From a virus: a stretch of DNA of 21,248 bases. Where the stretch lies: the IMG/VR virus record IMGVR_UViG_3300047171_000146, positions 1-21,248 of that record. One strand, 5' to 3'. How positions within the stretch are numbered: position 1 is the first letter of the stretch; the number at the start of each line of letters is the position of its first letter. The position numbers and the translations under genes are program-made. The notes under the pieces are model-generated. The model was not told the DNA's origin. It ran no database searches and worked only from the letters and a program-made list of their open reading frames with translations. Positions 6,081 through 21,248 of the stretch are shown here, piece after piece.

Positions 6081-6116
6081 CTTCCACATCTGCCGTAAAG
6101 CCGCGTCTTGCTTAAG

Positions 6117-6176: not shown

Positions 6177-6195
6177 TATGCTCTTCGCCGTCGGC

Positions 6196-6227
6196 GGGTG
6201 CCCCATGTCTCGATTCTGAGACATGGG
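6196..6227 (+). repeat. palindrome family A, copy 5
   Basis: GGGTGCC box followed by arms 6202-6211 and 6218-6227 with loop GATTCT. It lies in the same gap as copy 4, about 147 bp away. The gap 6005-6515 otherwise holds the small palindromes, a terminator and family B copy 2, and no credible gene. Confidence 0.9.
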
Positions 6228-6320
6228 ACCGCCGAGAATCCCACTTGCCGATCACGTGACTGAGCGGTTGGTGCGCCGGATGGTCTCAGTTAGCCGGGCG
6301 AGCTGCTTGAACGCATCGGG

Positions 6321-6352
6321 AAGGGCTGCCTGCGGGCGGCCCTTCTGCTTTT
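6321..6352 (+). terminator. rho-independent terminator after the capsid gene
   Basis: AAGGGCTGCC and GGCGGCCCTT pair over 10 bp (one G-T wobble) around loop TGCG, followed by CTGCTTTT. It lies downstream of the capsid gene and upstream of the connector genes. Confidence 0.75.
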
Positions 6353-6434
6353 CGGGCCAAAGGCCCGACCCATACCAGCCTGGGGCAACGCCCCAGGAAC
6401 CCATGCAAGCAAGAGTTGAGGGCTGAAGGCCCGA
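6353..6434 (+). repeat. palindrome family B, copy 2
   Basis: CGGGCCAAAGGCCCG (6353-6367), CCTGGGG/CCCCAGG around CAACG (6379-6397), and GGGCTGAAGGCCCG (from 6420), in the same order and strand as the other copies. Confidence 0.85.
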
Positions 6435-6515
6435 CTTATCCTCTCACCACGTTCCGGGGCCGGCGAACTCTACCGGCCCCGATGCATTTCACCCCGCACA
6501 GAAAGGCGGACCCTC

Positions 6516-7139: not shown

Positions 7140-7143
7140 CGCC

Positions 7144-7572
7144 ATGGCGAAGGTGAATGCAGCAGCAATCCGGGCAGCCGACACGCTGCTCCGAGGCGTC
7201 GGCGGCACCCAGGTCCTGCTCCGCGCGCCGGCCCCAGCCAACCCCGACGACGACGGCGAGCAGCTCGGCCTCTCCACCCCGCAGTTCCAGGATTCCCCGC
7301 TCTGCCCCGTCGTCTACCGCCGCTTGCGGCCAAAGTTCAACGCCGTCGCGAAGACGCCCACGCAGTACGAACTGCTCGTCTCGGCCACCGCCGTCAACGC
7401 GCTCATCGGCCCCGGTGCCTACGACTCCGCCGAGACCCTATTCGCCACCGCCTTCGCCGTCATCATCGACTCCGTCCCTCTCGAAATCGTCTCCGCCACC
7501 GCCTCCGAGATCGGCGGCGCACCCTACATGTACCGCCTGCTCTTACAGGCCCCGCTGTCCCTGAAAACCTAG
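7144..7572 (+). CDS. probable head-closure or neck protein
   Basis: A 142-residue protein 4 bp after the connector gene. It is beta-rich and mixed (GGTQVLLRAPAPANPDDDGE, then LCPVVYRRLRPKFNAV and a C-terminal YMYRLLLQAPLS). No family was recognised. Its size and slot between the connector and the tail-terminator-class gene match stopper/head-completion proteins, which are short beta-barrel proteins in siphophages. The role is positional inference. The start codon context (GAGGA about 10 bp upstream) is adequate. A long gap with an inverted repeat follows. Confidence 0.5.
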   Translation: MAKVNAAAIRAADTLLRGVGGTQVLLRAPAPANPDDDGEQLGLSTPQFQDSPLCPVVYRRLRPKFNAVAKTPTQYELLVSATAVNALIGPGAYDSAETLFATAFAVIIDSVPLEIVSATASEIGGAPYMYRLLLQAPLSLKT

Positions 7573-7596
7573 CCAAATAAGAGCCGTCATCAGTAA

Positions 7597-7796
7597 GAGC
7601 CGTCATCCTGAGCGGAGTCGCGAGCGGCTTCATCGCGAGTGACGGAGTCGAAGGATCCCGAGGACTTCAACGTCACCTCAACCGCTCGAACCTTTCCACC
7701 ACGGCTCCCCCCGGGTGAAAGGTTCGATCACCCGTGCCACGGTAAGCACCCTCGGGATCCTTCGACTCCGCTGCGCTCCGCTCAGGATGACGGCTC
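7597..7796. repeat. long inverted repeat of a dispersed GTCATCCTGAGC element
   Basis: Left arm segments 7597-7617 and 7643-7663 are exact reverse complements of 7776-7796 and 7750-7770. The middle of the left arm is longer and diverged. Inside lies a smaller hairpin (CGAACCTTTC 7687-7696 with GAAAGGTTCG 7717-7726). The arm sequence resembles a chromosomal repeat widespread in this group, from memory. Non-coding. Confidence 0.85.
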
Positions 7797-7833
7797 GCAG
7801 TGACCGAAGTTGTTCCCCACAAACTCAGTGTGC

Positions 7834-7866
7834 CCCATCCATCGCGGTCTCATCGCGATGGGTGGG
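7834..7866 (+). repeat. palindrome family C, copy 1
   Basis: CCCATCCATCGCG (7834-7846) pairs with CGCGATGGGTGGG (7854-7866) with one T-G wobble. It follows a GTGTGCC box like that of family A, with a different stem sequence but similar length. Confidence 0.8.
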
Positions 7867-7908
7867 ATCAAAACATTCACACCAGCCACGCCCCAAAGGA
7901 ACTCCGCC

Positions 7909-8424
7909 ATGCAAGATGCGCGTGACACATTCTATGTCGCTCTCAGAACCCGTCTCGCCGCGATCAACCCGGCCCGGACCATCGTCCTCCGCGGCCAGGT
8001 CCGCCCCGGCATCCTCGTCGAAGAGAACGAGCTGCCCACGGCCTTCCAGCCGGTCGACGCCTTCAGCCTCCGCTGGACCGGCACCCGCGTCGACACCGCC
8101 GCCCCGCTGCCTCTCATCGCGATGGAGTGCCAGGTCACCTACGCCACCGACGGCACCGCCGCCAACGGAGGCATGGACCGCGGCCGCCTGCTCGCCGCCA
8201 TGGATGCCGAGCTCCTCGCCGCCCTCAACCAAACCCCGCACTCCGCGCCCAAGATGAACTACTCCGGCGTCGCCGCCACCGGAGCCGCCGCCGTCCCCAT
8301 GTCCACCAGCATCTTCTGGAGCCAGCCCGCCTTCGCTCCCGCAACCAGCGCCGGATCCGGCGAACGCATCGAGCGCGTCGCCACCGTGCAGGTCTTCTCC
8401 TATCAGGAAGCAGGTGAGCTATGA
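7909..8424 (+). CDS. probable tail terminator-class protein
   Basis: A 171-residue protein. The ATG at 7909 follows AAAGGA at 7895-7900; longer in-frame reading enters palindrome C and is rejected. N-terminal helix with ARDTFYVALRTRLAAINPAR, then strands (TIVLRGQ, ELPTAFQPVDAFSLRW), a GMDRGRLLAAMDAELLAAL helix and a C-terminal strand RVATVQVFSYQEAGEL. An N-terminal helix R-x3-L plus later beta strands and size of about 170 is the pattern of tail terminator/completion proteins. It sits directly before, and overlaps by ATGA, the tail tube-like gene, which fits that role. Not recognised as a specific family. Confidence 0.5.
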   Translation: MQDARDTFYVALRTRLAAINPARTIVLRGQVRPGILVEENELPTAFQPVDAFSLRWTGTRVDTAAPLPLIAMECQVTYATDGTAANGGMDRGRLLAAMDAELLAALNQTPHSAPKMNYSGVAATGAAAVPMSTSIFWSQPAFAPATSAGSGERIERVATVQVFSYQEAGEL

Positions 8425-9416
8425 GCATCGCCCTCACCAACGCCACCGCGCCCATCGCCGGCCGCGTCCGCGCCTACTTCGCCCCGGTCAACCGCGCAAC
8501 CGCGACGCCCAGCATCTTCGACGCCGCCCAATCCGGCACCTTCCCCATCGACACCCCGCCTGCCCCCTGGCTCGACCTCGGCTGGATCGCGAACTTCGCC
8601 CGCAAGGCGGAGACCAAGGTCAGCCCCTTGCGCTCGGGAGCTCCCGCCATCGTCCAGACCCAGGTCCGCACCGAGGTCGAAGCGACCGTCTCTCTCGAGT
8701 TCGAAAGCTGGGGTAAGATCCAGCTGGCGCTGTCCTCCGGATCGGACCAGATGAACCTCCTCGCCACGGCGACTGGCGCATCAGCCAACGGCTCCGGTGG
8801 CGTCGCCGCAGCCGCCGTCCCGCTCCTCAACTCCGACTCGACCTCCACCACCCTCGACGTCGGCACCGCAGCCGCCAACTTCACCGTCGGCTCGCTCGTC
8901 GCCGTCGACATCGACTACACCGGCCAGCTCGGCTACGTCGGCAGCGGCGTCAGCGCCGCCTACGTGGCCTCATCCACCGCCGTCGGCGGAGACATCAATT
9001 ACATCCGCCGCGTCACCCTCAACGTCGGCCGCGTCGTGTCGATCGCTTCCGGCATCCTCACCCTCGGCTCGCCGCTGCTCGCCGGCGCACCCGTCGCCGG
9101 GATGAAGGTCGGGCTGCTCACCGGCTTCTGCGACCGCGAGGGCGGCCGCTTCTTCCAGGAGTGGTCCGCGCTCTTCGTCTTCGACGGCGAGCAGGGCGAC
9201 CGCGTCCTCTACCACTACCCCCGCCTGCAGGCGATGCAGGGCTCGGCCGAGATCGTCAGCGCCCTGTCTTTCGCGGGAACGGCCGGCACCGCCACCCCGC
9301 TCGAACGCATGCGCCTCGCCGCAGCCTTCCGCGCCCTGCCCGTCACCGACGCCAACGACAGCGCCCAGGTCGTCTGCTTCCGCAGCTACATCCCCGGCCC
9401 CATGCGCGCCGTCTGA
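8421..9416 (+). CDS. major tail (tube) protein-like
   Basis: A 331-residue protein starting at an ATGA overlap. The N-terminal part (about 1-110) has the features of tail tube subunits: residues around 47-60 PWLDLGWIANFARKAET followed by a block predicted to be strand-rich (VQTQVRTEVEATVSLEFESW) and a helix-like GKIQLALSSGSDQMN. The middle (about 120-235) is Ser/Thr/Gly/Val-rich and beta-like (SLVAVDIDYTGQLGYVGSG), possibly a surface Ig-like insertion. The C-terminal part has GKC-free strands (WSALFVFDGEQGDRVLYHYP). Larger than typical tube proteins of about 150-200, consistent with an inserted domain. Position after the terminator-class gene supports it. No tape-measure gene follows, which is unusual. 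Confidence 0.5.
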   Translation: MSIALTNATAPIAGRVRAYFAPVNRATATPSIFDAAQSGTFPIDTPPAPWLDLGWIANFARKAETKVSPLRSGAPAIVQTQVRTEVEATVSLEFESWGKIQLALSSGSDQMNLLATATGASANGSGGVAAAAVPLLNSDSTSTTLDVGTAAANFTVGSLVAVDIDYTGQLGYVGSGVSAAYVASSTAVGGDINYIRRVTLNVGRVVSIASGILTLGSPLLAGAPVAGMKVGLLTGFCDREGGRFFQEWSALFVFDGEQGDRVLYHYPRLQAMQGSAEIVSALSFAGTAGTATPLERMRLAAAFRALPVTDANDSAQVVCFRSYIPGPMRAV

Positions 9417-9418
9417 CG

Positions 9419-9634
9419 CCACCGCCGCCTCGACCCCACGCCCAGCCACGACCTTGGGTGCCCCATGTCTCGATTCTGAGACATGGGCCTCCACCGCCGC
9501 CTCGGCCCCACGTCCAGCCACGACCTTGGGTGCCCCATGTCTCGATTCTGAGACATGGGCCTGCACCGCCGCCTCGGCCCCACGTCCAGCCACGACCTTG
9601 GGTGCCCCATGTCTCGATTCTGAGACATGGGCCT
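9419..9634 (+). repeat. 72-bp tandem repeat, 3 copies, each with palindrome family A
   Basis: Units start at 9419, 9491 and 9563 with exact 72-bp spacing. Each holds CCACCGCCGCCTCG-type sequence (third begins GCACCG), CCAGCCACGACCTT, then a GGGTGCC box and a family A palindrome (9462-9487, 9534-9559, 9606-9631). A partial fourth unit begins at 9635. There are no variable spacers, so this is not a CRISPR. Confidence 0.95.
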
Positions 9635-9671
9635 CCACCGCCACATCGCCCCCAGAAAGCACGGCGGTCTT

Positions 9672-9797
9672 CGGGCCGAAGGCCCGACCTATACCAGCCT
9701 GGGGCAACGCCCCAGGTATCGAACCGGCACCAAAGCAAGGGCTGAAAGCCCGGCCTATCGTTCGCGGCAGAGAAGCATAGTTCGGGCCTTCGGCCCT
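9672..9797 (+). repeat. palindrome family B, copy 3
   Basis: CGGGCCGAAGGCCCG (9672-9686), CCTGGGG/CCCCAGG (9698-9716), GGGCTGAAAGCCCG (9739-9752), plus an extra hairpin CGGGCCTTCGGCCCT (9783-9797). The gap 9417-9874 thus holds the 72-bp array, this element and nothing else supported. Confidence 0.85.
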
Positions 9798-9874
9798 CAA
9801 AAACGGTCACCGCAACACCGGCGGTCACCGTTCGACTTCAAACCACAAGTTCCGATCCAAAGGAGATACCCGCC

Positions 9875-12800
9875 ATGCGCCAAACCCCAACTCACTCCGG
9901 GCTGATTGAAGTCCTCCTCTTCGCGACCCTCTTTACCGCGACCACCCTCGCCGGGTCCCTGCTCGCCGCCCCGGCCCCCGTCGCCGCCCAGACCACCCCC
10001 GCCATCCCCACCACCCAGCTCACCGACACCGTCTACCGCGCCGACGGCACCACCGCCACCGGCACCGTCCTCATCAGCTGGCCCGCCTTCACCACTGCCA
10101 CCGGCCTCTCGGTGCCCGCCGGCAACACGTCGGTGACCATCGCCGCCGGCGGCGTCTTCACCGTCGCGCTCGCCCCCAACGCCGGCTCGAACCCCATGGG
10201 CAGCTACTACACCGCCATCTATCACCTCGACGACGGCACCGTCAGCCGCGAGTACTGGGTCGTCCCCGTCTCAACCGGCCCGGTCGCCATCGCTTCCATC
10301 AAGTCCACCGTCCTGCCCGCCACCGTCGCCCTCCAGACCGTCACCAAGAGCTACGTCGATACGTCCATCGCCAACGTCACCACCGCCTACGTCCCCATCG
10401 CCGGCGGCACCATGACCGGCCCGCTCGTGCTTCCCGGCGACCCCGTCTCCTCGCTCCAGGCGGCCGACAAGCACTACGTGGACACCAGCGTGGCCGCCGT
10501 CGGCGGCGGCAGCGGAGGCAAGGTCGCCCTCGCTCCCTCCGCCAGCCAGGCCGTCGCCCAGCCCGCCGGCACCGCGCTCTCCGTCAACCGCCTCAACGGC
10601 GTCGAGTACGCCTCGCAGTACACCACCGGAGGCGCAGCCAACGGCATCGCCAACGCCGCCGCCAGCACCGACTGCGCCGCCGGCTGCGAGATCACGGCCG
10701 ACTCCAGCTACGCCGCCACCGAGGCGCTCCGCCCCACCCAGTGGAACAGCCAGACCCACGTCGAGGACACCCGCAAGGGCGGCCGCTGGGACAGCTACCT
10801 CAACCCCGAAAACGTCCAGACCCCCGGCATCGAGACCGGCCAGACCATCGACACCGTCTCCACCCGCAGCGGCGCCGCGCTCCACCAGCTGACCGGCACC
10901 GATACCCCCGCCTCCGTCGGCCTCGCTGTCTCGAACGAGGCCCCCGCCGGCGGCTCCAACCTCTTCCCGCAGTCCATCGGCGCCAACGCCCCCTACTTCA
11001 AGAGCGCCTACAGCGCCCTCACCGTCAACGGCACCTACAACACCCAGGGCCAGCACGTCCTCGCCCCCCACGGCGTCAACTGCTACGGCGTCGGTGACTG
11101 CCTCATCGGCTCCGAGTTCCTCACCTCCGCCGGAGGCTTCCGCGACGAGGCCGACGAGGGCACCCACCCCAAGGACATCCAGATCTCCGAGGACACCCAT
11201 GTCTTCGACGGCACCTGCGCCACCGGCTGCACCACCGGCTCGACCGCCCTCGCTATCACCCCCACCTCCGGCGCCGGCACCCAGGGCGACGGCCGCTTCC
11301 TCATCGACATGAACCCCGCCCGGGTCCTCTCCACCGGCACCCTCATCGGCGGGAGCCTCGCCGCCCCCCACGCCACAGCCAGCTTCACCGGCACCAGCTT
11401 CCCCCTGACTACCTTCTTCTCCACCGGCCAGGTCATCCCGTCCCAGGCCACGGACATCGCCCCCGGCACCGTCACCTTCGTCATCGCGACCGCCGGCGTC
11501 CCCTCCGGCTACGCCACCAGCACCTCCGCCGCGCCCGCCACCACCGGCCTCGCCTGCATCGCCGACCAGGTCAGCGGGACCCTCCCCAGCAACTACGAGA
11601 TGGCCGCCTACACCGTCATCGACGCCACCCACCTGCAGATCGCCTTCAAGAAGCCCCACGCCACCCTCGCCACCGTCGCCATCGGCGGCCTCTGCGGCTA
11701 CGGCCTGGAGCAGAAGGTAGACACAACCGGCGGCATCCGCCAGGTCTTCCCCGTCGTCGGGTCTTACTCCGCCACCGCCCTCTACTACGCGGGAACCAGC
11801 GCCGCCATCGTCGGCCAGCAGGGCACCACCAGCGGCTTCGTCAACGTCAACGCCCCCATCGCGACGGCCTCGCGCAGCGGAAACCTCGTCACCCTTACCG
11901 CCTCCTCCGCCCTTCCCTTCGACCTCAACGGCCTCACCGTCACCATCTCCGGCGTCGCCGACAGCTCCTACAACGGGACGTTCCCGGTAACCACCACCAG
12001 CCCCACCACCCTCACCTACACCCAGACCGGTGCCAACAGCTCCAGCACCGGCGGCTCCATCACCCTCCAGACCGGCAGCTTCGCCCTCTATCCCATGGCC
12101 GAGGTCCTCAGCGTCTACAACGCCTCCACCAGGGCCGTCGACGGCTTCATGACCCTCGCTCCCAACAACGTCGCCTGGGCCGTCGGAGACGCCGTCGAGG
12201 AGCCCCACTTCTTCCAGCAGATCGTCGCCGCCGACATCTCCTTCGTCACCCAGACCACCCCGCGCCCCACCACCTACGCCCGCGCCGGCATCACCTACCA
12301 GGGCAACAACGGCCCCGGCCTCCAGGGCTGGTCCATCGACAACAGCACCCCCGCCTCCAGCTACATCGGCAACGGAGGCACTCATCTCGCGCCCGACTTC
12401 GCCTACCAGGCCCTGGGCGTCTGGAAGCGGTCCATGGTCCTCCAGGCCGGCGAGCAGAGCGCCTTCACCCTCAACTGCAACTCCCACGGCTGCGGCAGGT
12501 GGAACAGCAACTACAACCTCTTCGAGCTCCAGAGCAGCGCCGGCGCCGACACCATCCAGTTCCAGCCGCCTTCGAGCACCCTCACCTTCTCCCTGCGCGG
12601 AACCCCCTTCACCTTCTCGCCCTCCGGCCTCACCGCCGGGACCCTCAACGCCACAACCCTGAACGCCACCACGCTCAACGGCGCGCTCGCCGCCTCGAAC
12701 ATCGCCTCGGGCACCGTCGCCGCCGCACGGCTCCCGCTCTTCGGACCCAGCGGCTCCGCCCACGCCGCCGGCATCGTCCCCGACCCCGGCGCCGCCGCCG

Positions 12801-15157
12801 GCACCACCCACTTCCTCCGCGAAGACGGCACCTGGGCCGTCCCCGCGGGCGGCAGCGGCGGCGGAGGCAGCAGCTCCGTTGCCGCCATCACCTCCGGCAC
12901 CATCGACGGCGCGACCATCGGCGCAACCACGCCCTCCACCGGAGCCTTCACCACACTCTCCGCCTCCTCCCTCACCGTCTCGACGCCCATCGCCGTCGCC
13001 AGCGGAGGCACCGGCTCCGCTACCACGCCCGCCGCCGGCCAGATCCTCATCGGCAACTCCGGCGGCACCGCCTTCGGCCCGCAGACCGTCTCCGGCGATT
13101 GCACCCTCTCCGCCTCCGGCGCGACTACCTGCACCAAAACCAACGGCGTCGCCTTCGGCACGGCCGCAACCACCGCCGCTTCCGCCTACGACGCCGCCGG
13201 TGCCGCCACCGCCGCCGCCGCCGCCGCCACCACCTCCACCGCGCTGCTGACCACCCTCCGCACCCTCACCAACTGCAACACCTCCGGCGGCTACTACCTC
13301 TCGCCCTTCTCTGGCACCTGCGTCGCCGTCTCCGGCGGTGGCGGAGGCTCCGTCAGCTCCGTCACCGCCGGCACCTGGCCCTCCTGGCTCACCCCGACCA
13401 TCACCAACTCCACCTCAACGCCAACCATCGCCGTCACCGCCTCCGCCATCCCCAACTCCGCCCTGGCCAACGCCTCCGTCAACGTCAACGGCACGGCCTG
13501 CGCGCTGGGATCCTCCTGCACCACGAACAGCTTCGCCACACTTCCCGCGCAGTCCAGCGTCCTCGCCGACTACCAGCTCACCGACGGCTCCGGCACCGCG
13601 CCCGCCGACTCCAGCGGCAACGGCAACACCGGCACCTTCCCCGGCGGCACCGCCAACCCCGCTTGGACCACCCAGGGCCTCAGCTTCACCGGAGGCTATC
13701 CGGCCACCGCGACCGGCCAGTACTTCTGCACCGCCGGGACCACCAGCGCCCAGACCGTCATGATCGCCTACACCTCCACCGCCCCGCTCGGCAACAATGG
13801 CCCGTCTTACCCGACCTACTACACCCTCTTCGCCAACGCCGCCATCTCCGGCCTCGGCTTCTATGCGCCCAGCCAGAACTACGGCTTCTTTCCCGGCATG
13901 AACCTGAACGGAGCTCCGCTCACCGCCATGAACAACACCATGGTGGGGACCCACGTCCTGGTCATCGTCTACGGCACCGGTTCGGGCGGCACGCCCTACG
14001 ACACCTACTACCTCGACGGCGTGCAGCAGTCCCTCGCCGGGACCAACTACTCCTCCGGCAAATCCACCGGCGTCTACTGCGTCGGCGGGGCCAACACCGG
14101 CTACTCCACCTACCTCTACGGCCAGGTCTATCGCGCCACCTTCTGGAGCACCCAGCTCACTCCGCAGCAGGCGGCGGCCGCCTCTCAGCTCACCACCATC
14201 CTCGCCCAGCAAAGGGGCGTCAACTTCGCCCCGCAGTCCATCGGCGGATCGACCCCGCAGGCCGTCTTCACCGGCGACTCCCTCACCAACGGCAACGGCG
14301 TGACCCCCTTCACCGCCAGCCTCTCGACCCGGATCGCCTACAACGTGAACAACTTCGGCATCGGCAACATCGGGGCGAACGTCAACGCCTCGCTGATGCC
14401 CTATCGCGAGCAGTACTTCTACTCCCCGCTCGCCCAGTCGAACGTCGCCTTCATCTGGAACGGCACCAACGATGTCGTCACCAAGGGCTTCACCGCGCAG
14501 GCCGCGCTCAACTCCATCCTCACCGAGTGCAACTACCAGCGCCGCTTCGGCTACAAGACCATCGTCGCCACGCCGATCTCCCGCGCCACCGGCGGCACCT
14601 CGAACGACCCGGCCGACAAGGACGCCCTCGGCCCCCTGATCCGCCAGTACGCGGTCTCCGGAGGCTGCGACGTCGTCGCCGACTTCGCCGGCGATCCGCG
14701 CGTCGGTGCCGACGGCGCGTACTCGAACACCACCTACTACCAGGGCGACACCACCCACCTCACGGCCGCCGGACAGGCATCCGTCATCGCGCCCATGGCC
14801 AGCCACGCCATCGACCAGGCCACCGGCTCGACCCTCGCCAACTGCGACCCCAACGTCGTCACCGCCTCCACGTACACCAGCGTGGCCTCGGACGGCTGCA
14901 AGGTCTTCAACACCGCCGCGAACTCCATCACCGACACGCTGCCCTCGGCCGTCGGCTACACCGGCCGCATCATTCGGCGCTGCAACAACTCGCTCTCCGG
15001 CTCGAACACGCTCACCCTCGCCGCTCCCTCCGACACGCCCTTCAACAACGTCGCCGGGACCACAACCATCACCGTCCCCAACAACACCTGCAAGGACTTC
15101 AAATCGACCCTCATCTCGGTCGCCGCCGCCGGCGAGTACTGGCAGCAGCTCAACTAG
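9875..15157 (+). CDS. giant secreted tail-fibre-like protein with LamG-like and SGNH/GDSL esterase domains
   Basis: A 1760-residue protein; the ATG follows AAAGGAGA. Residues 1-39 look like a Sec signal peptide: Arg2, a hydrophobic run (about 10-31), and an AAPAPVAAQ cleavage region. Residues about 45-135 are a beta domain ending REYWVVPVS. Residues 172-203 carry a tail-fibre motif (GGTMTGPLVL, then ADKHYVD). The middle is beta-rich Ser/Thr/Gly/Ala sequence with fibre-like FLREDGTWAVP (about 980-990) and GTIDGATIGATTPSTGAFTTL-type segment near 1008-1028. Residues about 1229-1455 resemble a LamG-like jelly roll (LADYQLTDGSG, SSGNGNTG). Residues about 1460-1645 are an SGNH hydrolase: GDSLT with Ser1469, NGTND with Asn1532, and DTTH with Asp1625 and His1628. 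It probably deacetylates or de-esterifies surface polysaccharide. A signal peptide on a fibre-like protein is odd, since virion fibres assemble in the cytoplasm. Confidence 0.85.
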   Translation: MRQTPTHSGLIEVLLFATLFTATTLAGSLLAAPAPVAAQTTPAIPTTQLTDTVYRADGTTATGTVLISWPAFTTATGLSVPAGNTSVTIAAGGVFTVALAPNAGSNPMGSYYTAIYHLDDGTVSREYWVVPVSTGPVAIASIKSTVLPATVALQTVTKSYVDTSIANVTTAYVPIAGGTMTGPLVLPGDPVSSLQAADKHYVDTSVAAVGGGSGGKVALAPSASQAVAQPAGTALSVNRLNGVEYASQYTTGGAANGIANAAASTDCAAGCEITADSSYAATEALRPTQWNSQTHVEDTRKGGRWDSYLNPENVQTPGIETGQTIDTVSTRSGAALHQLTGTDTPASVGLAVSNEAPAGGSNLFPQSIGANAPYFKSAYSALTVNGTYNTQGQHVLAPHGVNCYGVGDCLIGSEFLTSAGGFRDEADEGTHPKDIQISEDTHVFDGTCATGCTTGSTALAITPTSGAGTQGDGRFLIDMNPARVLSTGTLIGGSLAAPHATASFTGTSFPLTTFFSTGQVIPSQATDIAPGTVTFVIATAGVPSGYATSTSAAPATTGLACIADQVSGTLPSNYEMAAYTVIDATHLQIAFKKPHATLATVAIGGLCGYGLEQKVDTTGGIRQVFPVVGSYSATALYYAGTSAAIVGQQGTTSGFVNVNAPIATASRSGNLVTLTASSALPFDLNGLTVTISGVADSSYNGTFPVTTTSPTTLTYTQTGANSSSTGGSITLQTGSFALYPMAEVLSVYNASTRAVDGFMTLAPNNVAWAVGDAVEEPHFFQQIVAADISFVTQTTPRPTTYARAGITYQGNNGPGLQGWSIDNSTPASSYIGNGGTHLAPDFAYQALGVWKRSMVLQAGEQSAFTLNCNSHGCGRWNSNYNLFELQSSAGADTIQFQPPSSTLTFSLRGTPFTFSPSGLTAGTLNATTLNATTLNGALAASNIASGTVAAARLPLFGPSGSAHAAGIVPDPGAAAGTTHFLREDGTWAVPAGGSGGGGSSSVAAITSGTIDGATIGATTPSTGAFTTLSASSLTVSTPIAVASGGTGSATTPAAGQILIGNSGGTAFGPQTVSGDCTLSASGATTCTKTNGVAFGTAATTAASAYDAAGAATAAAAAATTSTALLTTLRTLTNCNTSGGYYLSPFSGTCVAVSGGGGGSVSSVTAGTWPSWLTPTITNSTSTPTIAVTASAIPNSALANASVNVNGTACALGSSCTTNSFATLPAQSSVLADYQLTDGSGTAPADSSGNGNTGTFPGGTANPAWTTQGLSFTGGYPATATGQYFCTAGTTSAQTVMIAYTSTAPLGNNGPSYPTYYTLFANAAISGLGFYAPSQNYGFFPGMNLNGAPLTAMNNTMVGTHVLVIVYGTGSGGTPYDTYYLDGVQQSLAGTNYSSGKSTGVYCVGGANTGYSTYLYGQVYRATFWSTQLTPQQAAAASQLTTILAQQRGVNFAPQSIGGSTPQAVFTGDSLTNGNGVTPFTASLSTRIAYNVNNFGIGNIGANVNASLMPYREQYFYSPLAQSNVAFIWNGTNDVVTKGFTAQAALNSILTECNYQRRFGYKTIVATPISRATGGTSNDPADKDALGPLIRQYAVSGGCDVVADFAGDPRVGADGAYSNTTYYQGDTTHLTAAGQASVIAPMASHAIDQATGSTLANCDPNVVTASTYTSVASDGCKVFNTAANSITDTLPSAVGYTGRIIRRCNNSLSGSNTLTLAAPSDTPFNNVAGTTTITVPNNTCKDFKSTLISVAAAGEYWQQLN

Positions 15158-15160
15158 CCA

Positions 15161-15371
15161 CAACTCCGGGCACCCATATCCCGATTCCGAGACATGGGCT
15201 CCCACACCGGCCCCAACTCCGGGTACCCATATCCCGATTCCGAGGCCTGGGTTCCCGCACCGCCACCACTCCGGGTGCCCCATGTCTCGATTCTGAGACA
15301 TGGGTTTCCACACCGGCACGACTCCGGGCACCCGATCCGTCGCGTCTTTTGTCTCTCGCGACGGGTGGGTT
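15161..15371 (+). repeat. 53-bp-period array of box-plus-hairpin elements
   Basis: Four units with hairpins starting at 15173, 15226, 15279 and 15331 (spacing 53, 53 and 52). Each begins ACTCCGGG plus CACCC, TACCC or TGCCC. Units 1 and 2 are degraded family A (CCCATATCCC arm; unit 2 right arm GAGGCCTGGG), unit 3 is intact family A (15279-15304), and unit 4 is family C (arms 15331-15344 and 15357-15369). Hairpins differ while the leading box and spacing are kept. Confidence 0.85.
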
Positions 15372-15393
15372 CCCATCACCGCCCGGAACCTGA

Positions 15394-15474
15394 GGGCCGA
15401 AGGCCCGACCCCATACCAGCCTGGGGCAACGCCCCAGGTCCCCGGCACCCGGGAGACGGAGGGCTGAAGGCCCG
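15394..15474 (+). repeat. palindrome family B, copy 4
   Basis: GGGCCGAAGGCCCG (15394-15407), CCTGGGG/CCCCAGG (15420-15438) and GGGCTGAAGGCCCG (15461-15474) in the usual order. It fills the last part of the gap 15158-15526 before the terminase. Confidence 0.85.
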
Positions 15475-15512
15475 ACCCATCTCCGCCACGCCATCGTCAT
15501 CGACGCGAACCG

Positions 15513-15529
15513 AAAGGAGGCCCCCCATT
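15513..15529 (+). promoter_or_regulatory. ribosome-binding site with apparent ATT start of the terminase
   Basis: AAAGGAGG at 15513-15520 is followed after 6 bp by ATT at 15527, which is in frame with the terminase. No ATG, GTG or TTG in that frame has such a site: the TTG at 15528 is out of frame and reaches a stop two codons later, and the next in-frame ATG is 54 codons downstream. A single base change would make it ATG. Confidence 0.6.
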
Positions 15530-17143
15530 GCAGATCTAGCCCCGGCCAGCAAGCCCCGCCGGCAGCCCGGCGAAGAAAACGAAGCCGCCTGCCTCCTCGC
15601 CGCCATACGCGGTCTCGCCGCCCGTCCCCGTCCGCACAAGCCCGGCGAAGCGACCCCGCCCATCGCCTGGGCCGCCCGGCATCTCCGCATGCGCGACCGC
15701 GACGGCGCCAGCCGCTTCCTGCGCGCCAACCCCGCGCAGGTGCACTTCGAGCGCGACCGCCAGCAGCGCAACATCATCCTCAAGGCGCGCCAGATGGGCG
15801 TCACCACCTGGATCGCCGGCCGCTTCTTCCTCAAGACGATCATGATGCCCGGCACCCGCACCGTCCTGGTCGCCCACAACCAGAGGTCCTCGGAGGCCAT
15901 CTTCCAGACCGTGCAGCGCTTCTGGAACTGCCTCCAGGAGGAGGACCAGGAGAGACTCTTCCGGCTCGACATCGCCAACGTCGGCACCATGCGCTTCCCC
16001 GTCCTCGACAGCGAGTTCCGCGTGCTCTCCGCCGCCGACGCCAACGCCGGCCGCGGCCTCGCCATGCAGAACCTGCACTGCAGCGAGGTCGCCCGCTGGC
16101 CCGGCAACCCCGCCGAGACCCTCGCCGGCCTCCGCGCCGCGCTCGCCCCCGGCGGCGAGCTCGTCCTCGAGTCCACCCCCAACGGCGCCTATGGCTGCTT
16201 CTACGACGAGTGGAACAAGGCCCTCGACCCGCACCAGTGGCGGAACACGAAAGACGGGGGCAGCGGCCTCGTCCGCCACTTCTTCCCCTGGTGGATGGAG
16301 CCGGCTTACGTCGCCGACCCCGCGGCGGCGGACCTGACGCCCGAGGAGCTTCGCCTGGTCGCCGCGCACGGCCTCTCGCCCCGCCAGATCGCCTTCCGCC
16401 GCGGCCTCGAGCAGAGCTACCACACCCTCCGCTCCCAGGAGTTCGCCGAGGACCCCGAGACCTGCTTCCGCGCCACCGGCGACTGCTGCTTCGACATCGA
16501 CGCCATCGAGACCCGGCTCGCCGAACTCGGCCCCGACCGCCCCCTCGCCACCCGGCGCGGCGGCGCGCTGCAGATCTATCTGCCGCCGCAGCCCGGCAAG
16601 CGCTACCTCGTCGCCGTGGACTCCGCCGGCGGCGGCAGCCGGGGCGACTTCGCCGCCGTCCAGGTCATCGATCTCGACTCCGGTCTCCAGTGCGCCGAGC
16701 TGCGCCAGAAGATCCGCCCCAACGAGCTCGCCAGCATCTCGGCCGAGCTGGCAAAGGAGTACGGCAACGCCATGATCGCCGTCGAGAGCAACAATCACGG
16801 CGCCGCGGTCCACGCCTACCTCGCGGCCTCGGAGCTTTACACCAACATCTATGGCAGGGGCCGCGAAAAGGGCTGGCCCACCAACGCGGCCACGAAGCCG
16901 CGGATGGTCGGCCTCATGGGCGCTCTCCTCGCCGAGTCGCCCGGGCTCTTCCTCAGCCGCCGCCTGCTCGCCGAGTGCCGCACCTTCGTCAGCAAGGAGG
17001 GAGGCCAGACCGGCGCGGCCAGCAGAGCGCACGACGACTGCTTCATGGCCATGGCCGTCGCCCACTCCGTCCGCGCCGAGCTGCTGACCCGCAAAGAGAG
17101 CTTCGTGGGGCGAATCGGTCCGGGGTCCTACGTTTACCTATAA
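15527..17143 (+). CDS. terL: terminase large subunit
   Basis: A 538-residue DNA-packaging motor from the apparent ATT start. The ATPase half has a Walker A-like KARQMGVTT (86-94), a Walker B-like hydrophobic strand ending in SE (NLHCSE, Glu187), and the coupling motif ESTPNG (215-220). The nuclease half (about 355-515) has the RNase H-like acidic residues in VAVDSAGG (Asp365), MIAVESNNHG (Glu420) and AHDDC (Asp503/504). All signature sites are intact, so it looks functional. It works with the portal at the capsid vertex, cutting and pumping DNA. Upstream in-frame reading passes through palindromes and is rejected. The portal gene, usually next, is displaced by about 2.9 kb. Confidence 0.9.
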   Translation: MADLAPASKPRRQPGEENEAACLLAAIRGLAARPRPHKPGEATPPIAWAARHLRMRDRDGASRFLRANPAQVHFERDRQQRNIILKARQMGVTTWIAGRFFLKTIMMPGTRTVLVAHNQRSSEAIFQTVQRFWNCLQEEDQERLFRLDIANVGTMRFPVLDSEFRVLSAADANAGRGLAMQNLHCSEVARWPGNPAETLAGLRAALAPGGELVLESTPNGAYGCFYDEWNKALDPHQWRNTKDGGSGLVRHFFPWWMEPAYVADPAAADLTPEELRLVAAHGLSPRQIAFRRGLEQSYHTLRSQEFAEDPETCFRATGDCCFDIDAIETRLAELGPDRPLATRRGGALQIYLPPQPGKRYLVAVDSAGGGSRGDFAAVQVIDLDSGLQCAELRQKIRPNELASISAELAKEYGNAMIAVESNNHGAAVHAYLAASELYTNIYGRGREKGWPTNAATKPRMVGLMGALLAESPGLFLSRRLLAECRTFVSKEGGQTGAASRAHDDCFMAMAVAHSVRAELLTRKESFVGRIGPGSYVYL

Positions 17144-17173
17144 CGAGCGCAAATAGAAACGAGCGCAAATAGA
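17142..17173. repeat. 16-bp exact tandem duplication at the terminase stop
   Basis: AACGAGCGCAAATAGA occurs at 17142-17157 and again at 17158-17173; the first copy overlaps the terminase TAA. It marks the left edge of the lower-GC cargo and may be an insertion scar. Confidence 0.85.
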
Positions 17174-17346
17174 TTTTGCAGTTGTACCTATTTCAACAGG
17201 AGGTGCGAATCTTTCATAGCGTCCCTTACGCGACATCCGCTATAGTGTGGGGTAAGGTATTTACAAGAAACGATACTGCGGCATTGCACTTCCTTTCCCT
17301 CCTTCCAAGCTGTATTAGCTAAGTTTTGGCTACTTGGGAGGCGGAT
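17174..17346 (+). promoter_or_regulatory. gap before cargo with weak promoter-like signal
   Basis: This AT-richer gap has a TATAGT at 17241-17246 resembling a -10 box, but no fitting -35 at 16-18 bp. A strong AGGAGG (17198-17203) has no standard start after it. The cargo must be transcribed from here or from the terminase; the sequence does not decide. Confidence 0.25.
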
Positions 17347-17664
17347 GTGGGAGTCTTTGGATCAGTGGTTGCGAAGCGTGAAATTCCTCGGGAGCATATC
17401 GCGCTTCCATCTGATTTTTATCCGTCCGCGACCTGCAAAGAGAGGGCTGAACTCTCCGACGCCTGGCAGGACGCGTGTCGGCCTTGTCTCCGTAAAGAGC
17501 TTGAATACCTTGAACTTTACGAGGAGAACAAGCAGCAAGTCCGGGCTGCTTTGATTGGGCATGTGGAAACGTGTGCCCAATGCCGGTTCCCCGAGAAGAG
17601 GCGTTCCTGGTTGGCTCTCCGGCTTATTTCGTGGCGGGCGGCCTTCCTCAAGGGGTCCTCATGA
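17347..17664 (+). CDS. small cysteine-cluster protein of unknown function
   Basis: About 105 residues from the GTG at 17347, chosen because GGGAGG at 17335-17340 lies 6 bp before it; a TTG at 17326 is the alternative. Two Cys pairs (CRPC and CAQC, about 38 residues apart, with CK and HVETCAQC nearby) bracket a charged helix (RKELEYLELYEENKQQVRAA), giving a possible zinc-binding module. The C-terminus is basic and aromatic (RSWLALRLISWRAAF). Base use is less GC-rich than the structural genes. Its stop overlaps the next gene as ATGA. I do not recognise the family. A competing 69-residue frame starting at 17345 lacks such features. Confidence 0.5.
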   Translation: MGVFGSVVAKREIPREHIALPSDFYPSATCKERAELSDAWQDACRPCLRKELEYLELYEENKQQVRAALIGHVETCAQCRFPEKRRSWLALRLISWRAAFLKGSS

Positions 17665-17876
17665 GGGCGAGCCAGCCAGGCGAAAAGCCTATCTGCAAAA
17701 GATGCGGCTCCGAACGCACAAGCAGAAAGCCGCGCAAGGGCTTTTTCGAGGAAACCGTGATGTTTAGGCTTGGCTACTTTCCCTGGGAGTGCAACGCTTG
17801 TTGGAAGCCCTTCTGGTCCCGCGTTCGGGGTCAGAGAAAACCTCGCAGAGACGCGGGGATGGGTGAATCGGCGTAA
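17661..17876 (+). CDS. small zinc-ribbon protein
   Basis: A 71-residue protein overlapping the previous gene by ATGA, which fixes the start. CKRC (residues 12-15) and CNAC (about 44-47) form a zinc ribbon, separated by a basic segment (SRKPRKGFFEE) and FRLGYFPWEC. Small proteins of exactly this layout, with an aromatic FPW just before the second Cys pair, are familiar to me from Acidobacteriota genomes, uncharacterised. The C-terminus is basic, so nucleic-acid binding is possible. It is probably co-translated with its upstream partner. A HipA-like gene begins 50 bp later. Confidence 0.6.
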   Translation: MRASQPGEKPICKRCGSERTSRKPRKGFFEETVMFRLGYFPWECNACWKPFWSRVRGQRKPRRDAGMGESA

Positions 17877-17926
17877 TTGTAGATTCAATTGGCGACACTC
17901 TTGCATGCCTTGGGCGGGGTAGATAG

Positions 17927-18769
17927 TTGGCCATCTTAGCGGTGCAGGCAATTCGTAAAATTGTTAAGGGCAGTTCACAGCCTCAACTGATGCTCGGTGC
18001 CGATAGGAACCTTTGGGTCGTCAAGTTCCAGAACAACCCGCAACATCTCCGCGTGCTTGCCAATGAAATGATCGCTACCCGCCTGGCAGCGGCGATCGGC
18101 CTCACAGTGCCGAAGTGCCACGTCGTCGAGGTCACGCCCTGGCTGGTCGAGAACACCCCGGACATGTACTACGAGCTGGGGCAAGGCCGGCGCGAACGCT
18201 ATGTCCCGGGGCTGCACTTCGGCTCGCAGTTCGTCGGTGGCCTCATGCCCGGACAGGCCGTAGACTACCTGCCCGACCAGCAGCTCGACGAGGTCCGAAA
18301 CGTCGGCGAGTTCGCCGGCATCCTCGCGCTCGACAAATGGGCCGGCAACTGCGACGGCCGACAGGCGGTCTTCACCCGCCGCCCGCGCGAGCGCAGGTAC
18401 CTGGCCAACTTCATAGACCACGGCTTCTGTTTCGCCGCCGGCGACTGGAACTTCCCCGACGCGCCCCTGCGCGGCATCTTCGCCCGCAACCGCGTGTACG
18501 CTAAGGTAAACGGCTGGGCATCGTTCGAACCGTGGCTTTCTTGCATCGAGGAGATGCAACCGAGTATCCTCTGGCGAATTGCTGAAACCGTTCCGCCTGA
18601 GTGGTACGGGGGCAACCTCTCCGACTTAGAAGGTCTCGTCGAGAAAATGCTGACGCGCCGATCGCGTGTCCGGGACCTGATCGTGTCATTTCGGGATTCA
18701 GATAGGAAGCCATTCCCGAATTGGGTAAGATCCTCTACCGTATCGGTACCGCAGCAATTCTCGTGTTGA
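17927..18769 (+). CDS. HipA-like (HipA_2) kinase-domain protein
   Basis: A 280-residue protein; the TTG start at 17927 gives MAILAVQAIRKI, matching how relatives begin (from memory); the GTG at 17942 is an alternative. It resembles the short HipA-like kinase family, not full HipA. Visible sites: Lys33 in VVKFQNNPQH (ATP-binding region), the family block LRVLANEMIATRLAAAIGL (41-59), a catalytic-loop-like DKWAGNCDGRQAVF (Asp136, Asn141, Asp143; 136-149), and FIDHGFCF (Asp164), equivalent to the metal-binding motif. All key positions look intact. HipA proteins phosphorylate translation-related targets; the substrate here is unknown. No HipB-like antitoxin gene is adjacent. The DUF3037 gene follows after about 100 bp, an association I recall as recurrent. 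Confidence 0.75.
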   Translation: MAILAVQAIRKIVKGSSQPQLMLGADRNLWVVKFQNNPQHLRVLANEMIATRLAAAIGLTVPKCHVVEVTPWLVENTPDMYYELGQGRRERYVPGLHFGSQFVGGLMPGQAVDYLPDQQLDEVRNVGEFAGILALDKWAGNCDGRQAVFTRRPRERRYLANFIDHGFCFAAGDWNFPDAPLRGIFARNRVYAKVNGWASFEPWLSCIEEMQPSILWRIAETVPPEWYGGNLSDLEGLVEKMLTRRSRVRDLIVSFRDSDRKPFPNWVRSSTVSVPQQFSC

Positions 18770-18815
18770 TAGATTTCATCGGTATCACCTAGACTTCGAC
18801 GATTTAGGGACGCTG

Positions 18816-18838
18816 GCAATTGAATTGCAGTAACTGCA
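18816..18838. promoter_or_regulatory. two overlapping perfect 13-bp palindromes, possible operators
   Basis: GCAATTGAATTGC (18816-18828) and TGCAGTAACTGCA (18826-18838) are both perfect 6-1-6 palindromes, centred at 18822 and 18832, so about one DNA turn apart. They lie between the HipA-like and DUF3037 genes, 33 bp before the latter's start. An AATTG/CAATT dyad (17875-17890) precedes the HipA-like gene. The binder is unknown. Confidence 0.5.
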
Positions 18839-18871
18839 TCGCAGAACATGTCTCCCAAGGAAGGTAAGCTT

Positions 18872-19834
18872 TTGAGTTCACGGATTCCATGCGAGTTTTT
18901 CCTCATCCGCTATGTCCCGGATGTGGTGAAGGGAGAGTTCACCAACATCGGCGTTGTGCTGCGCGAGGCGCGGCCGGAGACCCTGAAGTACCCCGACGCT
19001 GCCCGCAAGGCCGTGACGCAGGTCCGCTTCACCCGGGACTGGCGGCGCGTCCGCTGCATCGACCCCGGCGCCGATACGGAGCTTCTGGAATCGATCGAGG
19101 ACGAGATCGCCTCGCGGCTGATCTCCGAGGCCACCGGGCCGCTGCCCCCGCGCCCGCTGTTGCAGTTGTTGTCGGACACGCTGTCGAACTCGGTCCAGAT
19201 CACCGAACCCCGCGCTACGCTCGCCGAGAGCTTCGCCCTGGAGCTCGAACAGCTCCTGCGGCTCTACGTCGAGCCCATCCGGGTCAGGGTGACGCGGGAG
19301 CGGACAGGCCGCGCCGCCATCCACGCGGAGATGCGAAAGGAGTTCGAGCGCGCCGGGGTCTGGGCCGCCATGTTCAAGCGCTACCCCGTATCCGAATACA
19401 CCCGCAAGGGCGATCCGATGCGGCTCGACTGCGGCTACCGGCCCGAACCGAAGACCAAACCGAAGACCGAACCGAAGACCGAACCGAAGCTCGAACCGAA
19501 GACCGAACCGAAGCTCGGGGGCGGGACAGTCCACATCTTCCACGCGATCTCGCTGGCCGGCGACGCGGAGGCCGCCAGGGGCCTGGCCTTCACCGCGCCG
19601 CTGCTGCGCCAGGGGCTCGAGCGCAAGCTCGGCGCTGGACTCGACCTGGCGGCCGTGGTTGAACCGATCCGCTCCGTCTCGCCCGAAAAGGGCGAAGCAG
19701 ACGACTTCACCGGCGAGGCGGCCGATCTCTACCGCTTCGGCGTCGCCACCATGGAGGGCGTGGGCATCCGCGTCCTCACCACCAGCGATCTCCCCGGCGC
19801 CGCCGCCACCGCCCGCACCGAACTTCGACTGTAG
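18872..19834 (+). CDS. DUF3037 domain protein with EPKT-repeat linker
   Basis: A 320-residue protein. The TTG at 18872 follows AAGGAAGG (18857-18864) well and gives MSSRIPCEFF, matching relatives; an ATG at 18848 lacks a ribosome-binding site. Residues 5-30 hold the hallmark CEFFLIRYVPDVVKGEFTNI then GVVL. The middle is helical with acidic runs (about 70-150). Residues 192-215 are six 4-residue repeats (E/K-P-K-T/L) from a 12-bp tandem at 19445-19516, joining to a C-terminal ordered part (about 218-310). DUF3037 has no known function. It pairs here with a HipA-like kinase, so it may be a partner or regulator. It is followed by a palindrome and a terminator. Confidence 0.75.
   Translation: MSSRIPCEFFLIRYVPDVVKGEFTNIGVVLREARPETLKYPDAARKAVTQVRFTRDWRRVRCIDPGADTELLESIEDEIASRLISEATGPLPPRPLLQLLSDTLSNSVQITEPRATLAESFALELEQLLRLYVEPIRVRVTRERTGRAAIHAEMRKEFERAGVWAAMFKRYPVSEYTRKGDPMRLDCGYRPEPKTKPKTEPKTEPKLEPKTEPKLGGGTVHIFHAISLAGDAEAARGLAFTAPLLRQGLERKLGAGLDLAAVVEPIRSVSPEKGEADDFTGEAADLYRFGVATMEGVGIRVLTTSDLPGAAATARTELRL
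19445..19516 (+). repeat. 12-bp tandem repeat, 6 copies, in frame
   Basis: Six units close to GAACCGAAGACC encode EPKT, KPKT or EPKL. Differences are few, indicating recent expansion. The period keeps the reading frame. Confidence 0.85.
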
Positions 19835-19876
19835 CGGCACCGAAGCGGGTGATCGAACCACCGCAACGCCGGGTGC

Positions 19877-19902
19877 CCCATGTCTCGACTTTGAGACATG
19901 GG
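19877..19902 (+). repeat. palindrome family A, copy after the cargo
   Basis: Arms CCCATGTCTC (19877-19886) and GAGACATGGG (19893-19902) with loop GACTTT and the GGGTGCC box at about 19871. The stem is intact with a third loop variant. Confidence 0.9.
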
Positions 19903-19936
19903 CATTCGGGCGGAGCACGAACCGCCTTCCTTCAAC

Positions 19937-19969
19937 AGGCACAGCGATTACGCTGTGCCTCTTTCTTTG
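19937..19969 (+). terminator. rho-independent terminator before the portal gene
   Basis: AGGCACAGCG and CGCTGTGCCT pair perfectly over 10 bp around loop ATTA, followed by CTTTCTTT. It closes the cargo, 35 bp before the portal gene's start. Confidence 0.85.
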
Positions 19970-20003
19970 CCGCAACCCCGAACCCAACCCACAGGAGACC
20001 CCC

Positions 20004-21248
20004 ATGGGAATCACCGCCGCCCTCAAACAAACCTGGCACCGCCTCGCCGGAGTCCAATCCGCCGCCGCCGACCAAACCGGTGCCCGCAAGACCGCCATCC
20101 TCCCCTCCATCCTCAGCCCCCTGCGGCCTGGCGCGGGCAACCAGCAGGCGCTCATGAAGCCCACCCCCGCCAACCTGCGCCGCTTCGCCGAGACCCCCGT
20201 CGCCCGCCGCGCCATCAACCTCGTCAAGGACAAGATCACCAGCATGGACTGGCAGGTCCGCGTCCGCCGCGGCTACACCGCCGCCCAGGTCCCCGGCGCC
20301 GAAGCCCGCCTCAACGCCCTCCGCCAGTGCCTCGAAGAACCCAACGCCGCCGACAGCTTCCGCACTTTATTTGAACAGGTAGTCGAGGACGTCCTCGTCG
20401 GCGGCTTCGGCGCCATCGAGATGGAAGCGACCGGCGACGCCGCGCTCCCCTTCCACCTCTATCCGGTAGACGGCGCGACCATCCAGATCGACCCGGCCTG
20501 GAAGGGCGACCCCGAGCAGCCCCGCTACGCCCAGCAGACCGGCCGGATCGGCACCGGAGCGCTCATCCCTCTGCTGGATGACGAGCTGATCTACATCCGC
20601 CTGAACCCGCGCACGCACACTCCGTTCGGCCTCGGCCGCCTTGAAGTCGCCTTTGAAAGCATCACCCAGTTTCTCGGCGCCAACCGCTACGCCGGCCGCC
20701 TTGCCTCGAACTCCGTCGTCCAGTACGCCCTCTGGCTCAACGAGGCCACCCCCGAGCAGCACGACCGCCTCATCCGCTGGTGGCAGGACGAGATCGAGGG
20801 CACGGGCCGCGTCCCCATCCTCAGCTCGGAGAACAAGCCCGAGGTCCTGCGCTTCGCCGGAGGCACCGACGCCGACCTGCACATCGCCTGGCAGGAGTTC
20901 CTCCTCCGCATCATCGCCAACGCCTTCGACCTGCCTCCCATGCTGCTCGGTCTGACCGGCGACGTCAACAAGTCCACCGCCTCCGAGATGGCCGACGAGG
21001 CCTTCGCCTCCGCCATCGTCCCCGTCGCCAAGCTCCTCGCCGAACACATCACCCGCGACCTCTTCTCCAAGCGTCTCGGCTGGCGCGAGTTCGAGTTCGT
21101 CTTCAACGACCTCGAAAGCCGCGACGAGACCGAGGAGCTCAACATCCAGGTCCAGCTCCTCCAGAACGGCGTCCTCACCGTCTCCGAGGTCCGCCAGCAG
21201 CGCGGCCTCGCCCCCCTCCCCGAACCCGTCCCCCAACCCCAACCCTGA
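20004..21248 (+). CDS. portal protein, HK97-like family
   Basis: A 414-residue protein; the ATG follows ACAGGAGA. The portal dodecamer is the gate through which terminase pumps DNA. The family pattern is visible: PVARRAINLVKDKITSMDW (about 65-83), an FEQVVEDVLVGGFGAIEM segment (about 121-138), a beta stretch with YPVDGATIQIDPAWKGDPEQ, then a long helical region with NRYAGRLASNSVVQYALWLN, WQEFLLRIIANAFDLPPMLL and GDVNKSTASEMADEAFASAI. It ends with a short Pro-rich tail. An in-frame extension upstream to 19659 overlaps the DUF3037 gene and lacks a site, so is rejected. The window stops at its TGA. A terminator upstream implies its own promoter or read-through. Confidence 0.85.
   Translation: MGITAALKQTWHRLAGVQSAAADQTGARKTAILPSILSPLRPGAGNQQALMKPTPANLRRFAETPVARRAINLVKDKITSMDWQVRVRRGYTAAQVPGAEARLNALRQCLEEPNAADSFRTLFEQVVEDVLVGGFGAIEMEATGDAALPFHLYPVDGATIQIDPAWKGDPEQPRYAQQTGRIGTGALIPLLDDELIYIRLNPRTHTPFGLGRLEVAFESITQFLGANRYAGRLASNSVVQYALWLNEATPEQHDRLIRWWQDEIEGTGRVPILSSENKPEVLRFAGGTDADLHIAWQEFLLRIIANAFDLPPMLLGLTGDVNKSTASEMADEAFASAIVPVAKLLAEHITRDLFSKRLGWREFEFVFNDLESRDETEELNIQVQLLQNGVLTVSEVRQQRGLAPLPEPVPQPQP

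Follow-up and report, generated by a model that had tools for sequence, protein, structure and literature searches.

The DUF3037 gene in the 21,248-base stretch of DNA analysed here (the window) is, judging from comparison with related loci, quite likely transcribed from a sigma-54 promoter, TGGCAATTGAATTGCA, with a start at about 18840 and separate from the upstream hipA_2; the two palindromes in the same gap would then be incidental. That is, RpoN polymerase would bind at 18814-18829 and await an activator, and transcription would begin near 18840 and run into DUF3037 (TTG at 18872) apart from hipA_2. The HipA_2 kinase has DUF3037 as its antitoxin-like partner, so the supply of antitoxin would depend on an enhancer-binding protein whose gene lies elsewhere. 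Sigma-54 promoters are silent without an activator (PMC4641369), such that loss of the activating signal would leave less of the antitoxin-like protein.

A sigma-54-like pattern in hipA-DUF3037 gaps

The site (18814-18829, plus strand) has the form TGG-N8-TTGC and resembles a sigma-54 (RpoN) -24/-12 promoter, a likeness from which we infer its function. Its GG (18815-18816) and GC (18827-18828) lie ten bases apart within TGGCAATTGAATTGCA on the plus strand. The transcription start predicted from promoter geometry (18840, plus strand) is 12 bases past the C of the -12 GC in the usual promoter numbering. For DUF3037 (18872-19834, plus strand), TTG 18872 is probably the start codon; it is preferred over ATG 18848 because it fits the N-termini of four relatives and the Shine-Dalgarno-like AAGGAAGG (18857-18864, plus strand). 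The predicted leader from 18840 to this TTG thus has 32 nt and contains the Shine-Dalgarno-like sequence.

Within the whole window, TGGN8TTGCW occurs at 3 sites on both strands together (0.77 expected), and 4 of 100 shuffles of the window had at least 3. Only two of them are on the coding strand (18814-18829 and 17890-17905), the third being on the minus strand at 7038. The second coding-strand site, TGGCGACACTCTTGCA (17890-17905), lies 21 nt upstream of the hipA start codon. It is absent at the equivalent place in the relatives examined, may therefore be due to chance and does not enter the promoter proposal for DUF3037. Written more strictly (TGGCAYRNNNNTTGCW; TGGCAYRN4TTGCW), the pattern is not matched anywhere in the window with 1 mismatch allowed; in the DUF3037-proximal site, the -24 block is TGGCAA and the -12 block is complete.

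A rival promoter is provided by a weak sigma-70-like match (TTGATA-18-TAGACT, 18766-18795, plus strand). DUF3037 might be expressed from it or by read-through from hipA, which the gene order permits, with the palindromes shaping the leader RNA. We consider this quite unlikely: 0.5 such sigma-70-like matches are expected by chance where 1 was found, and the RNA of the region folds no better than its shuffles (z of 0.04, 0.71 and -0.42), on which grounds a leader RNA hairpin was rejected.

The promoter-like pattern was sought in related loci with hipA, namely five viral contigs (L004-L007 and L009) and the top 80 of 307 chromosomal matches. Most of the chromosomal loci carry an Acidobacteriaceae or Acidobacteria label; L020 and L053 are filed under Rhodanobacteraceae and L058 under Verrucomicrobia. 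Genus and family searches added further loci to a total of 233, some of which are one place from two sources; 229 have a measurable gap between hipA and DUF3037, yielding 164 distinct gaps. Gap counts omit L067 and L165 and, for the sets of 94 and 108 gaps, also L164 (unreliable boundaries or paralogues), while the 164-gap count keeps all gaps. The gaps measure anything between zero and several hundred bases, and unrelated repeats are found in many of them.

The most enriched coding-strand hexamer in 99 gaps is AATTGC (12 vs. 1.5 expected). Aligning its flanks gives TGG[C/T]...ATTGC[A/T] with GG and GC ten bases apart, a spacing that, as far as the letters tell, is the -24/-12 arrangement of sigma-54. 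TGG-N8-TTGC is found on the coding strand of 15 of the 94 non-coding gaps and on the other strand of none, compared to an expectation of 0.71 and a maximum of 4 in 200 shuffles. N8 alone is enriched, i.e., the spacings N4-N7 and N9-N12 give 0-4 coding-strand matches in the same gaps. Among all 164 distinct gaps, the coding strand bears the pattern in 16 (2.0 expected) and the opposite strand in 0. When the gaps are divided by the identity of their hipA, those with at least 65% show 14/71 vs. 1.05 expected, and those below 65% show 2/93 vs. 1.06, no more than chance; one of the latter two sites (L005) belongs to the window's own clade. The excess of this promoter-like pattern is thus confined to the closer relatives.

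The place of the sites is similarly constrained. Most of them (13/15) begin 38-91 nt upstream of the edge used for DUF3037, and the window's site, beginning 61 nt upstream, is like most others. Scanning TGGN8TTGCW over 3 kb on either side of DUF3037 in 108 loci, we find a peak in the last 100 nt upstream, with 13 matches on the plus and 0 on the minus strand. The next two upstream 100-nt bins hold 4 and 6 matches, including some inside hipA, and all other bins 0-3. Of the 25 matches in the 400 nt preceding DUF3037, the 10 inside hipA were discounted; seven of these have TGGAG...TTGC in common, stemming from a conserved codon stretch. The pattern is not enriched in the terL-hipA and DUF3037-portal gaps.

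Those columns of the 15 sites that are independent of the search pattern agree with a sigma-54 promoter as well. TGG is followed by C/T in 13/15, TTGC by A/T in 15/15, and directly ahead of TTGC stands an A (14/15; otherwise G), itself preceded by A/G in 15/15. The sigma-54 consensus is given as TGGCACG-N4-TTGC (PMC3224663), and -24/-12 elements of similar kind are described in PMC4641369. A G ahead of RATTGC, present in 13/15 sites, goes beyond the cited consensus, such that a factor other than RpoN is possible. On the hipA-DUF3037 tree of 108 gaps, the 15 sites require 13 changes compared to a shuffled mean of 14.3; they are thus scattered and do not go back to one inherited copy.

The exact site is found in 15/108 or 16/164 gaps, and 148/164 are without it; of the 108 gaps, 43 do not reach 40 nt, and none of these has a site. 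A further set of mostly distant gaps gave 1 site vs. 0.56 expected (37 gaps of at least 16 nt). A weighted sigma-54 score does not exceed its shuffles when the threshold is 8-9.5; with 10, 10.5 and 11, it selects 48, 34 and 27 of 94 gaps on the coding strand vs. shuffle maxima of 45, 29 and 21. All these counts are to be read knowing that TGG-N8-TTGC was recognised and tested on overlapping gap data: the second gap batch alone (L097-L165) shows 6/30 vs. 0.78 expected but was in view when the motif was recognised, and the last 18 regions largely duplicate loci already counted, so that the closer relatives are without a truly held-out set.

RpoN itself is present in the related genomes. Its DNA-binding domain (PF04552) is matched in 16/17 of them, the exception being a genome of 2.9 Mb, and also in 4/14 control genomes. 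Sigma54_activat has 13-15 matches per genome in 5 genomes, weak ones included. Since this family also matches in all 14 control genomes, only strong matches were counted; G001, the only genome for which positions were compared, has nine of these, none near the cluster discussed below. In 5 genomes, TGGYNNNNGRATTGCW occurs at 39 places vs. 6 for the reversed control. Of 30 such loci that were read, four are DUF3037 genes and many others lie inside open frames. Further sites are located 30 and 4 nt upstream of two PEP-CTERM-like genes (L253 scores above the PEP-CTERM cut-off, L248 below every cut-off) as well as ahead of an UpxY antiterminator gene and an NtrC-type activator gene with GAFTGA.

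Palindromes overlapping the promoter-like site

The gap had drawn attention for its symmetry. GCAATTGAATTGC is a perfect 6-1-6 palindrome at 18816-18828 (centre 18822; palindrome 1) and TGCAGTAACTGCA another at 18826-18838 (centre 18832; palindrome 2), both without strand, with TGC (18826-18828) in common. The original prediction of two perfect 6-1-6 palindromes that share 3 bp and have centres 10 bp apart was confirmed in all coordinates. Palindrome 1 overlaps the promoter-like site, running from the second G of its GG to the C of its GC. Palindrome 2 begins within TTGC and ends just short of 18840, the predicted start; it would occupy about -14 to -2 and is a possible operator.

How unusual the pair is depends on the background considered. 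The whole window contains 11 palindromes of the 6-1-6 type compared to a mean of 8.4 in 300 simulations. When 102-nt stretches are simulated with the gap's own dinucleotides, 2.4% of 20,000 contain at least one such palindrome and 0.005% an overlapping or adjacent pair, the latter being a rough figure since it reflects 1 simulation. The pair is thus locally odd, yet it was chosen after the fact.

At least one pair of 6-1-6 palindromes not more than 25 bp apart is found in 15% of simulated windows. This would suit the view that nothing in the gap is functional, i.e., that chance palindromes lie in a drifting, repeat-rich gap and that the promoter-like match is also a chance one at the window's locus. 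The variable gap lengths, the unrelated repeats in several gaps, the eight copies of a 26-bp inverted repeat in the window and the 148 related gaps without exact site point the same way. On the other hand, the enrichment over loci is specific for strand and spacing, and the window's site is placed like most others and is one of only two coding-strand TGGN8TTGCW in 21 kb. Given this, we regard a purely accidental origin as unlikely.

The original prediction took the palindromes for a pair of cooperative repressor sites. Formulated in full, a dimeric repressor (HipA together with DUF3037, or that of the phage) would bind both as neighbouring operators facing the same side of the DNA, and palindrome 2 when occupied would block the promoter. 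The exact symmetry, the 10-bp spacing and the rarity of an overlapping pair in a 102-nt stretch of this composition speak for such operators, as does the published modelling of DS-6B with DNA (ipTM 0.67, PMC13092281). By eye, L005 and L034 also show short symmetric stretches just past the -12 element, in another register. The comparison of related loci, which had been proposed as a check, gave the result that had been named as refuting: neither palindrome occurs in the 163 other distinct hipA-DUF3037 gaps, and no other gap among them has two 6-1-6 palindromes together. Among the 15 sigma-54-like sites, only the window's is palindromic. At the other 14, 1-4 of 6 pairs match at the positions of palindrome 1 and 0-2 of 6 at those of palindrome 2. 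Candidate DNA-binding domains were not recognised either, with neither DUF1829 nor helix-turn-helix matches in 34 DUF3037 proteins and no solved structure at E 0.001 in a Foldseek search. Since neither palindrome recurs in the other gaps, the operator pair was rejected as the main reading, and we give it little probability; a repressor acting at palindrome 2 is likewise conceivable but improbable.

Part of the oddness of the symmetry is explained by the promoter-like site, since TGGCA...TTGC already sets GCA and TGC inverted at the right spacing, which accounts for 3/6 arm pairs. The remaining three arm pairs of palindrome 1 would then match by chance. On the sigma-54 reading, palindrome 1 is a by-product of the promoter, whose -24 GGCA and -12 TTGC are near inverted repeats, and palindrome 2 is probably incidental. 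What is conserved in the related loci is, at the level of sequence, a strand- and spacing-specific pattern as in promoters and not a symmetry as in operators. The more general expectation of regulatory-looking DNA in a gap adjoining a toxin-antitoxin-like pair was borne out.

The gene pair and its phage-like cluster

The first gene of the pair encodes a HipA_2 kinase (17927-18769, plus strand; PF20613, 2e-13), which is toxin-like and matches the PADLOC model PDC-M66A (9.2e-11). The DUF3037 gene (PF11236, 1.9e-19) is antitoxin-like and matches PDC-M66B (1.5e-8), with the order of both genes being the same as in the models. HipA_2-DUF3037 is thus the published defence pair PDC-M66/DS-6/HipAD. 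For Retron-Sda1, deletion of the HipA kinase abolished defence while deletion of DUF3037 was toxic, from which its authors suggest that DUF3037 neutralises a toxic HipA (PMC12548924). DS-6, renamed HipAD, has the same architecture and shows kinase-dependent defence, neutralisation of toxicity by DUF3037 being only hypothesised there. Its second protein, DS-6B, is a DUF3037 plus DUF1829 protein, for which AlphaFold3 suggested binding to DS-6A and, less strongly, to DNA (PMC13092281). The main texts of PMC12548924 and PMC13092281 make no mention of RpoN, sigma-54, sigma factors or Acidobacteria. We infer an antitoxin role of DUF3037 in the window, and hence an effect of its supply on the toxin, from this likeness.

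The pair had been noted to lack a HipB-like gene, and this holds: 0/34 DUF3037 proteins have a helix-turn-helix Pfam match (E 0.1), and neither the pair nor the two small ORFs upstream of it gave one. The implied lack of an antitoxin does not follow, given that DUF3037 is the published antitoxin-like partner. DUF1829 was likewise found in 0/34 DUF3037 proteins (E 0.1), and DUF3037 as a recognisable DNA-binding protein was dismissed on these two results together with its AlphaFold model, which has a mean pLDDT of 83.5 but a pTM of 0.59 and gave no Foldseek match at E 0.001. By sequence, there are no solved relatives for HipA_2 or for DUF3037.

Some features of the proteins themselves are worth recording. 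At its stop, HipA_2 has a C-terminal tail [VILM][MN] in 95/108 loci with varying preceding residues, which could be a docking or degradation signal; the window's HipA_2 is without this tail and ends in PQQFSC (18740-18769). The window's DUF3037 has a lysine-proline repeat (EPKTEPK..., 19441-19520) between its halves that is not found in four other proteins compared.

The pair is embedded between phage genes. Upstream lies the gene of the terminase large subunit (15194-17143, plus strand; phrog_2, 1.8e-27), the true start of which is uncertain. Downstream follows the portal protein gene (20004-21248, plus strand), which starts with ATG and runs off the window; its product shares 85% identity, along the matched part, with the L029 protein, which itself matches PF04860 (1.2e-52). 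A head-tail adaptor is recognisable by profile in the cluster. A putative capsid protein (5030-6001) is 80-85% identical in nine relatives compared and occupies the place of a capsid gene. Comparison with PHROG and Pfam (at 0.001) and with the PDB gave no match for it, and the pLDDT of its predicted model is 31.9, so the label rests on gene order.

In the initial set, a DUF3037 match adjoins hipA in 84/85 loci, the exception, L076, being cut off where its contig stops. A terminase and a portal match occur together in 66/85 loci and singly in 7, while 12 loci show neither. The pairs without terminase or portal alongside (L039, L043, L048, L050, L071, L084, L093 and others) include some with kilobases of flank; the pair can thus outlive or leave the cluster. 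The cluster (putative capsid, adaptor, TerL, hipA, DUF3037 and portal) is placed at 3011-21248 of the window and was followed across L017-L096. Its gene order is rotated between groups: the putative capsid block precedes TerL in the window and follows the portal in a more distant group (compared with L033, L041, L006, L073 and others).

The cluster is mainly inherited, as its gene trees largely follow rpoB. Of 250 genomes from the family, 177 contain hipA (E 1e-20) and 145 the putative capsid gene (E 1e-60), in 144 of them as a single copy. For the comparison with rpoB, we started from 30 genomes in which one contig carries both hipA and the putative capsid gene, and left out G110 and G139 (no rpoB match) and G107 (broken match), i.e., 27 genomes. 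The distances of five cluster genes correlate with those of rpoB at 0.70-0.84, compared to permutation maxima of 0.29-0.35. The joined cluster tree recovers 16/24 rpoB splits and 13/15 well-supported ones, where the random maximum is 2. Taken singly, portal recovers 13 of these 15 splits, hipA 12, TerL 11, DUF3037 10 and the putative capsid gene 7. Based on its genes, the cluster is perhaps a candidate gene transfer agent or a domesticated prophage. Prophages in Acidobacteria genomes have been described (PMC5900883), and a shared Sphagnum phage-like contig matches an Acidobacteriaceae genome (PMC12142844). Neither is called a gene transfer agent in the relevant passages of these two articles, and the surveyed portion of the literature holds no report of one in Acidobacteria.

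Other elements of the window include an ORF (1505-2071) with a match to sigma-70 region 4 (PF04545, 9.2e-6), relatives of which lie upstream of hipA in L035 and L058; it is a possible regulator of the cluster. The 26-bp inverted repeat CCCATGTCTC-N6-GAGACATGGG has its eight copies at 4933, 6055, 6202, 9462, 9534, 9606, 15279 and 19877, and TGGGGCAACGCCCCA has four copies. Such dispersed repeats are chromosome-like, in a contig filed as virus. The inherited cluster also warns that IMG/VR contigs such as the window's may be host chromosome.

Taken jointly, the observations allow a wider reading, which we put forward tentatively and hold to be rather doubtful as a whole: a gene-transfer-agent-like element would be inherited in Acidobacteriaceae with HipA_2-DUF3037 between terminase and portal, the antitoxin of a Granulicella-like group would be under a sigma-54 promoter, and a host signalling pathway would decide on the restraint of the kinase via an activator ATPase. 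If true, a signal of starvation, envelope state or exopolysaccharide would govern particle production or phage defence. Of possibly greater importance than the promoter is its setting, a largely inherited, mostly single-copy phage-like cluster of a soil family in which a defence pair has become fixed.

Comparison with known systems

The gap sites resemble sigma-54 promoters in TGG-N8-TTGC[A/T] with exact spacing on one strand, in the mostly C/T after TGG, in the presence of RpoN in related genomes and in that 13/15 sites are within 100 nt of the DUF3037 edge. They differ in the -24 block, which is TGGCAA in the window and TGGT in many relatives compared to TGGCAC, and in the extra G before RATTGC.

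With HipBA, the pair shares a HipA-fold kinase and a partner gene. In contrast to HipBA, it is without a HipB-like helix-turn-helix partner, and the palindromes are not operators kept among relatives. Autoregulation via operators is the usual mode in type II toxin-antitoxin pairs; if an antitoxin-like gene had an enhancer-dependent promoter to itself, the circuit would be wired differently and could be controlled by one host signal.

Gene transfer agents of the RcGTA type and domesticated prophages are also mostly single-copy phage-like clusters whose trees largely follow the host. The host group differs, and the putative capsid protein of the cluster has no profile match.

The pair resembles PDC-M66/DS-6/HipAD, where a HipA_2-type kinase gene is likewise followed by a DUF3037 gene. 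The second protein of the window's pair has no match to DUF1829, a domain reported for DS-6B and not known to define PDC-M66. The pair further differs in lying inside an inherited phage-like cluster, flanked by terminase and portal, and in that its DUF3037 gene has a promoter-like site of its own.
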